Position numbers and translations under genes: made by a program
DNA from: Candidatus Eisenbacteria bacterium
GTDB taxonomy: Bacteria; Eisenbacteria; RBG-16-71-46
Assembly: GCA_013140805.1 (NCBI GenBank)
Contig: JABFRW010000020.1
Location: 1 to 41,318 of the forward strand
Direction of reading: 5' to 3'
DNA: 41,318 bases
Notes under the pieces: generated by a model
The model's input: the letters and a program-made list of their open reading frames with translations, nothing else
Databases searched by the model: none
What the model was told of the DNA's origin: nothing
Shown here: positions 1-41,318 of the stretch, one piece after another
Position numbering within the stretch: position 1 is the stretch's first letter
How the letters are laid out: the number at the start of each line of letters is the position of its first letter

Positions 1-84
1 AGGACCCGCCTGGCCGGGGCCGCCGACGGATGCGCCTCGTCATGCCGCAGGGCCCAAGAGGGACCGCACCATGAAACTCCTCGC

Positions 85-2208
85 ATGGCCGATCGTGTTC
101 GCCTGCATCGCCGTTGCCCCCCCCCCGCGATGGCGATTCAACTTCACTGGAGTAATGGCGCGACGGACCTGAGTTTCGCCGGCGCGGTCCGATGCACCGC
201 GCTGGTTGAGGCCGACGTGGCGGCTCCGTCGCTGCCGTCGGGCTGGCGGTTGTTGTGGGCCGCGGAGGATTGCTCGCTCCACTTCGTCGCCACACTTCCC
301 GCGGGTGCTCCGTGCGATTCGCTGGTCGCCGAGGTCGCGGAACTCACACCGCCGGCCGACGTGGCCGAAAATCTCCTGACGGCGCACTTTTGTGCAGGAG
401 CATCATCGCCCCGGTCCGCGAGGCTGGTGCTCGATCTGGTCGGTGCTGGGAGCGGCAGACTGAAGGTGGTGGCGCTCGATCCCGCCGACTCGGATTCCCA
501 AGCCGTGCTGCAGTCGGCCGAGATTCGGTTCAACGGAGGGACGAGCCTCCCGCTCCCTGCTGTCGTGCTGCACGTGACTCATTCGCACGGCTCGCCGCAG
601 CTTCGCGTGCGAGCGTCGGGCTACGGGCTCGACGCCACGTCGCAAGTGGTGGCCTATCCGACCGACGGCTCGCCACCGATCTTTCTGGCGATCACGAGCC
701 AGAGCGAGACGAACCTGGAAGCGGAAGCCACGCTGCCAAGCGCGCTGCCGCCATCGTCGCTCCAAATCGCGAGCTCGTCGGGGACGTTTTCGTCGTCGCC
801 GCTGGCGGGCGATGTGGTGCTGAACTCGGCTCCGCTCGGCGCCGAGTGGGCCTACTACGTCGACCCGGACCCGAGCGTTTACCCGAAGGACTTCGCATTC
901 ATCTACAACACGGTGCCGACGGCGCAGCCGAACGTGTGGCGAAGTCTCTACCACCTGATCTACATCCGACACTTTCACACCAATCCGCCGCCCGTGAACG
1001 ACGCGGACCTGAGCCATGCGTGGTCGCCGGACCTGAGCCCCGGCTCGTGGAAGACCCAGTCGATCGCGTTCTCGCCCAGCGGCGGCACGGGCTGGGATTC
1101 GCGTCGGGTGTGGGCCCCGAGCATCGTCGAATTGAACGGAACGATCTACATGTACTACACCGGTCTCGATGGAGTCGACAACCAGTCGATCGGGTACGTG
1201 ACGACTTCGATCATCGACACGACGAACACGGTCTGGTCGCCGCAACGAACCCAGGTGTTCACCGCTGGCAACACAGGTTGGGCCGCTACCGGTGCGCCGC
1301 AGCAGTTCCGCGATCCGTTCGTAATGCAAGACCCGGCCGGGAGCGGTCGGCTGTTCATGTGGATGGTGGGGAACAATAGCCATGATCCGTCGAGGCGCTC
1401 GGTGGTCGGCGTGGCGAGGACCAATCCTGGCTCGCCGGGACCGTTCTTTGACCGCGGCTACTACCGCGCCACCGACCACCTTCATAGCGGTGGCGTCCAG
1501 ATCGCCGAATCGCCGCACATCTTCCCGGATGCCGATCACGCCACACCGAGTCAGTGGGCCCAGGCCCGGTGGCGTCTCACGTACACCGATGGGCCGGCCG
1601 CTCCCGATCGGTCGATCATCTTCTCGACCCGGCTGTTGAATACGGTGGCGCTCGACGACACGACGCTCGGTGAAGGAACAGCGCAGAGCCCCTATCGATG
1701 GTCGTTCCCCCCGACTCGGCTCTACCCCTACCTTCACCCGGACCTGCAGCCCGATCAGACGATGTGGGGCTGGGTAGCCACCGAGTACCTGCGCGCCGGC
1801 AAGGTGGACTTCATGGCCGCATACGACGGGGTTGGGATTCCGATCACGCGGATGTTCTGGAGCGGACCGGAGTTCCTGCTCGGGTATCCGAGCGTTGCCG
1901 GCATTGACGACTCACACCGCGCGACTCACGAGCGGACGCGGCTCACGGTCGCGAGCATGATTCCGACGCGGCAGCGGGTGAGTCTCCGCGTCGAGCTGCC
2001 TGCCTCGATGCCGGCAACCCTGAGCGTGTTCGACGCGCTTGGTCGAAGGGTCGCGGATCTCGCGAGCGGAACGATGCAGGCCGGGATGAGGCTCCACCCC
2101 TGGGATGGCAGCGACGCGAATCGTAACGCGGTGCGCAGCGGTGTCTACTTCGCTCGACTCTCGACACCGTTCGGCGCCCGCGTCGTACGCATTCCATTGC
2201 TCCGATGA
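85..2208 (+). CDS. Secreted beta-propeller (GH43-like) protein with FlgD-like C-terminal domain; signal peptide out of frame
   Basis: The open frame starts at ATG 85, but its first 15 residues look like an out-of-frame signal peptide. A better start is ATG 71, preceded by AGAGGGA at about 57-63; it encodes MKLLAWPIVFACIAVA and then runs into ten C residues (117-126), leaving the downstream frame. With 8 or 11 C the two parts join as a signal peptide ending in AMA before IQLHWSN. The middle (about residues 275-620) has glycan-active five-bladed propeller features such as RVWAPSIVELNGTIYMYYTG. The last ~75 residues (SVFDALGRRVADL ... SGVYFARL) form the FlgD-Ig-like tail common on secreted proteins of Eisenbacteria-like genomes. 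Inferred: exported polysaccharide-binding or degrading protein. No catalytic residues are assigned. The N-terminal 250 residues are not recognised. Confidence 0.75.
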   Translation: MADRVRLHRRCPPPAMAIQLHWSNGATDLSFAGAVRCTALVEADVAAPSLPSGWRLLWAAEDCSLHFVATLPAGAPCDSLVAEVAELTPPADVAENLLTAHFCAGASSPRSARLVLDLVGAGSGRLKVVALDPADSDSQAVLQSAEIRFNGGTSLPLPAVVLHVTHSHGSPQLRVRASGYGLDATSQVVAYPTDGSPPIFLAITSQSETNLEAEATLPSALPPSSLQIASSSGTFSSSPLAGDVVLNSAPLGAEWAYYVDPDPSVYPKDFAFIYNTVPTAQPNVWRSLYHLIYIRHFHTNPPPVNDADLSHAWSPDLSPGSWKTQSIAFSPSGGTGWDSRRVWAPSIVELNGTIYMYYTGLDGVDNQSIGYVTTSIIDTTNTVWSPQRTQVFTAGNTGWAATGAPQQFRDPFVMQDPAGSGRLFMWMVGNNSHDPSRRSVVGVARTNPGSPGPFFDRGYYRATDHLHSGGVQIAESPHIFPDADHATPSQWAQARWRLTYTDGPAAPDRSIIFSTRLLNTVALDDTTLGEGTAQSPYRWSFPPTRLYPYLHPDLQPDQTMWGWVATEYLRAGKVDFMAAYDGVGIPITRMFWSGPEFLLGYPSVAGIDDSHRATHERTRLTVASMIPTRQRVSLRVELPASMPATLSVFDALGRRVADLASGTMQAGMRLHPWDGSDANRNAVRSGVYFARLSTPFGARVVRIPLLR
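117..126 (+). repeat. Homopolymer of ten C inside the signal-peptide codons
   Basis: G116 is followed by ten C residues and then GCGATGGCG. The run lies exactly where the signal peptide frame (ATG 71) must join the mature frame. Eight or eleven C restore one continuous protein; ten break it. It could be a phase-variable tract, a real frameshift or a sequencing/assembly error. Confidence 0.9.
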
Positions 2209-4739
2209 TCACCAGCGCTCGCAGAAGTCGACAGCACCGCGACGCGGCACGCCATGTGGCGGCGGCGCTGCTGGCGGCACTTCTGATGTGCAGCACGCCT
2301 TCGGCGCGCGCGCAGGTCGCAGATGGGAACCTGTGGACCTGTGACTGGGCAGGTCTGATCGAGTCGATCGCCCGCTACGGCGACACGCTGGTGGTGGGGG
2401 GCTTTCCGTGGAACCTGGGCCCCGCGAGCGGTGCCGGGGTGCCGGTGGACCCGATCGACGGCAGGCCGCACGAGCGATACGCGAAGGTTGCCGGCGTCGT
2501 ACACGTGGCCATCTCCGACGGCTGCGGCGGATGGTACGTAGGTGGGGAGTTCACGGGAGTCGGTGGGCTGCCGCGCCGCAACCTCGCGCACGTTCGTGCC
2601 GACGGGTCGGTGGATGACTGGAGTCCAGGCCCCGATGGGGAGGTGCGGGCCCTGCTCATGGCCCATGGTCGGCTCTACGTCGGCGGCCGGTTCGGAGTGA
2701 TCGCGGGGGCCAGCCGTAGCCGGGTGGCGGCCTTCGACCTCGCGTCGGGCGAGGTCATGGAGTGGGCTCCGCAGGCCCTCGGATGGGCGGTGCGCGCGCT
2801 CGCGTTCCGCGACAGCAGTGTGTACGTGGGGGGAGATTTCGAGCAGATCGGCGGAGCGGACCGCTACTACCTCGCTGAGATCAGTGCGACAACGGGCCAG
2901 GCAACGGAATGGAATCCGGTGGTTTGGGGAATCGTCGAGGCCCTCGCAATTCACGATCGCGCGCTCTATGCGGGGGGCCGATTCTCGAGGGTCGGACCCG
3001 ACGCGCGCAAGTACCTCGCGGCGATCGATCTCGATACGGGTCGCGCCACCGCATTCGACGCCCAGATCGACCGGCAGCCCGAGTACATCTACGACACGGG
3101 CCCGCGGGTGCGCGCGCTGGCGGTGGCGTGCGGAAGGTTGTACGTCGCCGGCGCGTTCGATCGGATCGGCGGACAGGCACGCGAGAGCCTCGCGGCGGTC
3201 GACCTCGAGACCGGCGAGGCGCTCCCATGGAACCCGCGCCTCGATAGCTACAACGGCACTCATCCCTGGATGCCCTATGTCCACGCCATGGTCGTGCAGG
3301 GCAACGCCGTCTACTTTGGAGGTCAATTCCAAACGATCGGCGACGACACCAGCCCGGACTTCGAGGGGCACTACGCCGCAGCGGTGAGCGCCCTGACGGC
3401 GGAGCGAATCGCGACCTGGCAGCCGCGAACCAATGGCCGGGTGCAGGCGATCGCAGCGGACGGGAGCTCGGTGTTTCTGGGTGGTGACTTCACGAGCGTG
3501 CGGGATTGGGTCAAGCACCTGGGGCTCGCGGCAATCGATCTTCGCAGCGGCCGCGCGCTCGATTGGTCGCTGAACACCGACGGCAGCGTGAAAGCCGTGG
3601 AGCGGATCGGAGATCGGATCTTCGTCGCCGGTGGATTCGGTGTGGTAGGAGGAAAGCCACGCGCGAACCTGGCGGCGATCGACGCGCGCACCGGAGAACT
3701 GCTCGACTGGGCGCCCAATCCCAATGGTGGGATCTGGTCGATGGCGCGGCACGGCGACAAGTTGCTCGTGAGCGGTACCTTTCGACGGATCAGCGGCCAG
3801 CCGCGCAACTGCTTCGCGGAGCTCGACCCTTTGACCGGTGCGGTGACCGCCTGGGACCCCAACGGCGACTACACCGCTGATGCCATGGTCGTGGATGGGG
3901 ACCGCGTCTATCTCGGCGGTGGATTCGATCACATCGGTGGAGTGTCCCGGGTAGGGCTCGCGGCGGTCGACGCCACGACCGGGGCGCTGCTCGATTGGTA
4001 TCCGGGGCCCGGCCAAGTGTTCGAGATGGTGTTGGACGGGGATCTGCTGTTGCTTGGCGGGTACCTTCAACTGGGGGGTGGTGAGCGCGGATTCGCCACC
4101 GTGAACAAGTTCACCGGTGCCCTGGTCGACTCGGGCCTGGGAGCGGTCGTTCTGGATCGCGACAATTTCACGAGCGTCATCGTGCGCGCGATGAGCGCGA
4201 GCAACGGCGTGCTGTACCTGGGCGGCGACTTCGACGTCGTCAACGGCGAGCGACGGTTCGATCTCGCGGCGATCGACATGGCGACCGGGACCTTGCTGTC
4301 CTGGGATCCGGGGGTGAGCGAAAACGTCTGGTCGCTGTTGGCGAACGACGTGGACGTGTTCGCCGGGGGACACTTCTGGAACGTGGGCGTGGCTCCTCAA
4401 TCCGGGCTCGTCCGGCTCAGTGCGGCGCAACCGCTGACTCGAAAACCCGAACCAGACCCCGAACCCATCGGGCCGCGAGCGGCGGTCGAGCTCGCGATGA
4501 ACAACCCTGCCGACGCCATGGGGATCGTGCGGCTCGTGCTGGCGGCGCCGAGTGTCGTGGATCTCGACATGTTCGACTCGCAGGGGCGTCGCGTCGCCAC
4601 AGTAATGCGAGGGGAGACTGTCGGGGCCGGCACTCACGAGGTGCGTTTCGCGACCGCCGGGATGAGAAATGGTTGCTACTTCTTGAAGCTCACGACCGGC
4701 GGATTGACGATTGTGCGGCGAGTCGTGGTCCTTCACTGA
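2205..4739 (+). CDS. Secreted protein with about 14 propeller repeats and FlgD-like C-terminal domain
   Basis: ATG 2205 overlaps the previous stop (ATGA), so translation is probably coupled. An N-terminal signal peptide runs to SARAQV (basic start, then AAALLAALLMCS). The body consists of about 14 repeats of roughly 50 residues with the pattern V-x-GG-x-F-x-x-IGG-x-x-R-x-x-LAAID-x-x-TG-x-x-x-x-W-x-P, close to the DUF5122/delta-60 propeller motif. Fourteen units would fit two seven-bladed propellers (inference). The final ~85 residues (LDMFDSQGRRVATVMRG ... NGCYFLKLTTGG) form a FlgD-Ig-like domain matching the neighbour's tail. Probably a cell-surface or secreted binding protein; ligand unknown. 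No enzyme motif is visible. Confidence 0.8.
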   Translation: MITSARRSRQHRDAARHVAAALLAALLMCSTPSARAQVADGNLWTCDWAGLIESIARYGDTLVVGGFPWNLGPASGAGVPVDPIDGRPHERYAKVAGVVHVAISDGCGGWYVGGEFTGVGGLPRRNLAHVRADGSVDDWSPGPDGEVRALLMAHGRLYVGGRFGVIAGASRSRVAAFDLASGEVMEWAPQALGWAVRALAFRDSSVYVGGDFEQIGGADRYYLAEISATTGQATEWNPVVWGIVEALAIHDRALYAGGRFSRVGPDARKYLAAIDLDTGRATAFDAQIDRQPEYIYDTGPRVRALAVACGRLYVAGAFDRIGGQARESLAAVDLETGEALPWNPRLDSYNGTHPWMPYVHAMVVQGNAVYFGGQFQTIGDDTSPDFEGHYAAAVSALTAERIATWQPRTNGRVQAIAADGSSVFLGGDFTSVRDWVKHLGLAAIDLRSGRALDWSLNTDGSVKAVERIGDRIFVAGGFGVVGGKPRANLAAIDARTGELLDWAPNPNGGIWSMARHGDKLLVSGTFRRISGQPRNCFAELDPLTGAVTAWDPNGDYTADAMVVDGDRVYLGGGFDHIGGVSRVGLAAVDATTGALLDWYPGPGQVFEMVLDGDLLLLGGYLQLGGGERGFATVNKFTGALVDSGLGAVVLDRDNFTSVIVRAMSASNGVLYLGGDFDVVNGERRFDLAAIDMATGTLLSWDPGVSENVWSLLANDVDVFAGGHFWNVGVAPQSGLVRLSAAQPLTRKPEPDPEPIGPRAAVELAMNNPADAMGIVRLVLAAPSVVDLDMFDSQGRRVATVMRGETVGAGTHEVRFATAGMRNGCYFLKLTTGGLTIVRRVVVLH
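2340..4425 (+). repeat. About 14 tandem ~50-residue propeller repeats within a coding region
   Basis: Recurring cores include VGGEFTGVGG, VGGRFGVIAG, VGGDFEQIGG, AGGRFSRVG, VAGAFDRIGG, FGGQFQTIG, LGGDFTSV, VAGGFGVVGG, VSGTFRRISG, LGGGFDHIGG, LGGYLQLGG, LGGDFDVVNG and AGGHFWNVG, plus a degenerate first copy. Repeats have diverged at the DNA level, so this is an old protein repeat, not a recent tandem duplication. Confidence 0.8.
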
Positions 4740-38881: not shown

Positions 38882-41287
<2,406 letters not shown>

Positions 41288-41318
41288 CACAGGCTCCTCG
41301 GTAATTGGCTCCCGGCGC

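Follow-up and report, generated by a model that had tools for sequence, protein, structure and literature searches.

Switching by slippage is known chiefly from pathogens and commensals associated with hosts. The closest described counterparts of the locus examined here are found in Neisseria. In opa, CTCTT repeats are located in the region coding for the leader peptide, changes in repeat length shift the frame of the mature protein, and several paralogs are present (PMC3960869). A poly-G/C tract within the reading frame, with 9 to 20 G, is found in pilC (PMC5953494), and opc is switched by a poly-C tract in its promoter (PMC3960869). In a study of the Neisseria phasomes, a G/C tract of 9 bases was the threshold for phase variability (PMC5953494).

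The window, that is, the whole stretch of 41,318 nucleotides that was analysed, is the entire contig C20 of a Candidatus Eisenbacteria genome (G000; 3.8 Mb, 215 contigs, 96% complete, 0.06% contamination). The window and the contig begin at the same base, and the C tract is therefore located in the contig tip. The relevant features are the following:

1 to 160, forward strand: shared with the terminal part of contig C207 (19420-19581), same bases except for C10 versus C12
58 to 63, forward strand: Shine-Dalgarno-like GAGGGA, 7 bases 5' of the ATG at 71 (ATG71), retained in the C189 copy
71 to 116, forward strand: frame 2 codons for the predicted n- and h-region of the signal peptide, MKLLAWPIVFACIAV; hydropathy resembling that of 26 relatives
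71 to 172, forward strand: ATG71 ORF as assembled, 33 aa, the proposed off state, with TGA at 170-172
117 to 126, forward strand: C10 tract where the two frames meet; its counterparts are C12 (contig C207) and C11 (C189 paralog)
127 to 135, forward strand: codons Ala-Met-Ala, predicted signal-peptidase site in the mature frame at the AMA/IQLHW border, from the comparison with relatives
136 to 2208, forward strand: predicted mature secreted protein, a GH43/GH32/GH117-like propeller with an FlgD-like C-terminal tail
2205 to 4739, forward strand: gene 2 of the pair, encoding a DUF5122 propeller and a sorting-type tail, with an ATGA overlap with gene 1

Like opa, this locus has a repeat inside the region coding for the signal peptide, a mature protein that length changes would move into and out of frame, and paralogs. 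Unlike opa, which has pentamer repeats, encodes outer-membrane adhesins of a pathogen and is a proven switch, the C20 locus is a proposed one. The likeness to pilC consists of a G/C homopolymer in the 5' part of a coding sequence whose product is exported, and of two paralogs, whereas the pilC product is an unrelated pilus protein and its switching is likewise proven. Jonsson et al. reportedly located the pilC tract in the signal peptide in 1991. Promoter poly-C switches such as opc are a possible parallel to the G/C runs upstream of related genes, but the C20 tract itself is coding. Among the papers searched, none mentioned both Eisenbacteria and phase variation.

Translation from ATG71 in frame 2 yields MKLLAWPIVFACIAVAPPP and ends at the stop codon at 170-172. 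The frame of the mature protein is frame 1, which is open until the stop at 2206-2208 and is also open 5' of the tract. As read from the frames, the predicted signal peptide is split: frame 2 encodes its first half, and frame 1 encodes its cleavage site together with the mature protein. A tract of 8 or 11 C would fuse the ATG71 frame to the mature frame and place A-M-A directly before IQLHW. These results bear out the original prediction that ATG71 with a ribosome site opens a good signal peptide, that the mature protein follows in a different frame with the switch exactly at ten C, and that 8 or 11 C would restore a signal peptide ending in AMA. The frames, and the joined form seen in the relatives, show that changing the length of the tract connects the beginning of the protein to its remainder or disconnects them.

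Genomes of the family, 20 in number, were searched with the mature protein, and 26 relatives were inspected at their 5' ends. In all 26, a single frame contains the ATG, the hydrophobic core and an x-Ala border (once x-Ser) with an IQLHW-like motif after it, and the longest C run at the signal-peptide border does not exceed 5. The signal peptide of one relative (G004:C625) ends in A-M-A, as in the C20 gene. A tract within the signal peptide was absent from every other genome checked, among 47 of the phylum. Genome G010 has an expanded family, with 15 places matched in the mature-protein search. Peak 10-residue hydropathy is 2.65 in the ATG71 frame and 2.86 on average in the 26 relatives (1.90-3.74), compared with 0.80 for a start at ATG85 and 1.08 for a start at ATG130. 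Because all 26 relatives have an in-frame signal peptide and no long tract at this position, ATG85 and ATG130 are implausible starts, and they were rejected on this ground and on that of the hydropathy values. The original prediction had named homologues truly starting at one of these two codons as evidence against itself, and the relatives, each with a signal peptide, do not provide it. A gene caller would pick ATG85 or ATG130 here, and the signal peptide would be lost from the annotation.

The tract is the sole run of C or G longer than 6 in the window. Dinucleotide shuffles gave an expectation of 0.04 for C10 or G10 in the window, with such a run present in 3 of 100 shuffles, and the run-length decay of the window itself gave about 1e-3 to 1e-4. 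Poly-C/G tracts of at least 10 bases are rare, with three distinct loci in G000 and roughly one per megabase across the family. A scan of the window for sigma-70-like promoters found none above chance near the gene.

The product of gene 1 is predicted to be a putative glycosidase with a GH43/GH32/GH117-like propeller. It matches the Pfam profile of the GH32 N-terminal domain (PF00251) with 28.8 bits against a cutoff of 22.1, the GH43 profile (PF04616) below its cutoff, and an FlgD Ig-like profile at its tail. An AlphaFold model of the gene 1 protein from 24 relatives had a mean pLDDT of 79.7. The best solved structures found with Foldseek were GH117, GH32 and GH43 propellers (probability 1.00, E 2e-8), with 11-15% identity and low TM-scores by query of 0.25-0.36. 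Invariant D, H and E columns are present in the family alignment. The GH32 profile match and the Foldseek hits tentatively liken the protein to the five-bladed propeller glycosidases of these families, from which it differs by a long extra N-terminal part and the FlgD-like tail. The term propeller, used in the original prediction, suits this protein and also fits gene 2, whose DUF5122 propeller is followed by a type A sorting-like tail. This tail passes the curated cutoff for type A sorting (T9SS, TIGR04183) with 26.0 bits against 23, whereas the tail of gene 1 misses it with 18.7 bits. About 95 places in G000 match the FlgD-like C-terminal tail of gene 1; these are probably exported or surface proteins.

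A second copy of the whole gene pair is located on contig C189 (4.65 kb, 88.5% nucleotide identity). Protein identity between the copies is 92% for gene 1 and about 84% for gene 2, and the ATGA overlap of the two genes is present in both. The C189 junction reads GTA-C11-GCGATGGCG and would be in frame only with 9 or 12 C, so this copy is out of frame as well. Its frame offset equals that of C20 even though its junction is 3 bases longer, and its tract sits in the contig interior, 1,963 bases from the end. For gene 1, the comparison of 692 codons gave a dS of 0.215, a dN of 0.046 and a dN/dS of 0.21, and for gene 2 the dN/dS is 0.27. The mature frames of 692 and 696 codons stay open in both copies. 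Since these ORFs are open and the dN/dS is 0.21, neither copy looks dead, and both mature frames look to be under purifying selection while off frame. A pseudogene was rejected on the basis of the same ratio. Of the changes between the copies in the 15 codons 5' of the tract, 3 are synonymous and 4 non-synonymous when read in the ATG71 frame, and none is synonymous in the ATG85 frame (dS = 0); these counts are small numbers that lean towards the ATG71 frame. A 292-bp block (window 1379-1670) is identical in the C189 paralog, against a divergence of about 11% elsewhere, a pattern like that left by gene conversion.

A C9 search of the genome revealed a further tract at C207:19536-19547, 34 bases from the end of that contig. 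Apart from C12 in place of C10, the terminal 162 bases of C207 match bases 1 to 160 of C20. Since the tips match apart from the tract length, C207 and C20 are neighbours, and this match indicates that the assembly broke at the tract, with the lengths disagreeing on either side. The C207 ORF 5' of the locus, which we take to encode ribonuclease G, ends about 100 bases before the overlap. A paralogous repeat is unlikely as the cause of the break because the assembly ran without a break across the identical 292-bp block in another part of the pair and across the C11 tracts on C189 and C128. Homopolymer contig breaks of this kind can conceal switch loci. As a control for tip overlaps, partners were sought for three other contig ends, and none were found. 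The other tip of the window (41189-41318) overlaps G000:C84:6-136 with a one-base difference, at a place without a homopolymer, and the contig tips of this assembly are unreliable in general. The tip of C84 contains a short inverted repeat.

Taken together, the locus is somewhat more probably than otherwise a slipped-strand, simple-sequence contingency locus that switches the export of the gene 1 protein. During replication, the C tract, which separates the hydrophobic core from the cleavage site, would gain or lose C's. With 8 or 11 C, translation from ATG71 would enter the mature frame and the glycosidase-like propeller protein would be exported, and with other tract lengths translation would stop within a few dozen codons. 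While gene 1 is off frame, translation of the ATGA-overlapped gene 2 would probably drop too, because the overlap suggests translational coupling of the two genes. We infer that tract length would differ among living cells, with C10 and C12 taken from overlapping contig ends rather than from read counts, and that the switching would be reversible and polar on gene 2. The C10, C11 and C12 tracts all exceed the 9-base G/C threshold of the Neisseria phasomes. C10 and C12 at the same locus and C11 in an off-frame paralog favour length variation over a uniform in-frame length. The original prediction had proposed counting the tract in raw reads and related genomes, and these three lengths, read from contig sequences, answer this in part. 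Its suggestion of slipped-strand phase variation is upheld in its geometry and by the tract lengths, while the homopolymer sequencing error that it named beside it may still account for C10 and C12, which come from contig tips. Phase variation is only partly supported for this reason, because lengths of 10 and 12 would also result if a true 11 had slipped during PCR or sequencing.

Such a technical artefact is the main rival explanation, and we consider it less likely. It would require that the true tracts are in frame, with 11 C here and 12 on C189, that the gene was on in the sampled cells, and that the assembled lengths are due to slippage during PCR, sequencing or assembly. The symmetry of 10 and 12 about 11 is consistent with this, as is the position of the C20 tract in a contig tip. 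C20 also mismatches its neighbour at the opposite tip, so that both C10 and C12 may be misread forms of a true 11. Furthermore, most long C runs of genome G014 are found at contig ends, which indicates that C runs can break assemblies. However, three assembled lengths would then have to be wrong, including the one well inside C189, and the C11 tracts on C128 and C189 left the assembly unbroken. Even in-frame tracts of 11 to 12 C would exceed the phase-variable length in Neisseria (PMC5953494), and slippage in cells would still be expected.

Another possibility, which we consider very unlikely, is programmed slippage, in which the tract keeps one off-frame length in the DNA and some full protein arises through slippage of RNA polymerase or the ribosome along the C run. 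The common frame offset of C20 and C189, despite junctions that differ by three bases in length, and the purifying selection on both mature frames would fit this explanation. However, C207 with its C12 has another offset, the arrangement is absent from all 26 relatives, and constant low-level slippage would bring no known benefit at a secretion signal. An ordinary gene with a non-secreted start at ATG85 or ATG130, or a dead gene without a signal peptide, would fit the fact that every assembled length is off frame and that frame 1 is open 5' of the tract, but it can be dismissed as highly improbable given the long open mature frames with their low dN/dS, the signal peptides of the relatives, the FlgD-like or sorting-type tails of the proteins, and the pre-tract differences between the copies, which are non-synonymous in the ATG85 frame.

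If the slipped-strand switch is real, slippage switching would extend to secreted, glycan-active-looking proteins with two paralogs in an uncultured environmental phylum. The selective pressure there might be phage, grazing or public-goods sharing rather than immunity.

G/C runs of 8-11 bases were also found at -174 to -237 from the mature start in 6 of the 26 relatives (G010:C109, G010:C2, G010:C148, G003:C18, G003:C3 and G004:C197). In comparison, a G/C run of at least 8 bases near the start was found in 4 of 216 control genes (Fisher p 1.4e-4 excluding the G000 copies, 4e-6 including them), with unequal windows of 450 bases before the mature start for the relatives and -250 to +60 of the start for the controls. 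The control genes were predicted with a crude gene caller in 400 kb from G000, G003 and G010, and those with upstream runs include alaS and an ABC-transporter-like ATPase. Since housekeeping genes such as alaS carry them, upstream tracts alone do not mean switching. Their support for switching in the relatives is modest for this reason and because of the crude gene caller and the differing windows. In a trio of relatives (G003:C3, G004:C197 and G004:C625), TTGC[AG]C and TACGGT flank a G-rich stretch and are spaced by 16, 20 and 19 bases, respectively, which would fit a possible promoter-spacer switch. Beyond this one trio, the upstream regions were too divergent in a MAFFT alignment for a common tract element. 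A family-wide repertoire of poly-G/C switches of an expanded family of secreted glycosidase-like propeller proteins in Candidatus Eisenbacteria, with tracts inside the signal peptide (G000) or upstream and possibly in the promoter (G003, G004 and G010), is a tentative and rather unlikely extension of the proposed switch.

Several further homopolymers were observed in these genomes. A run of 30 C at G010:C34:12462-12491 is probably an assembly artefact. A 9-base C/G run at G000:C10:12651-12659 is located in the linker of another probable surface protein, just ahead of its FlgD-like tail, and a length change there would remove this tail. At G000:C128:2767-2777, the C11 tract lies about 25 bases 5' of an ATG that opens MPLIAFVMACVLA, a signal-peptide-like sequence, and may represent a second switch.
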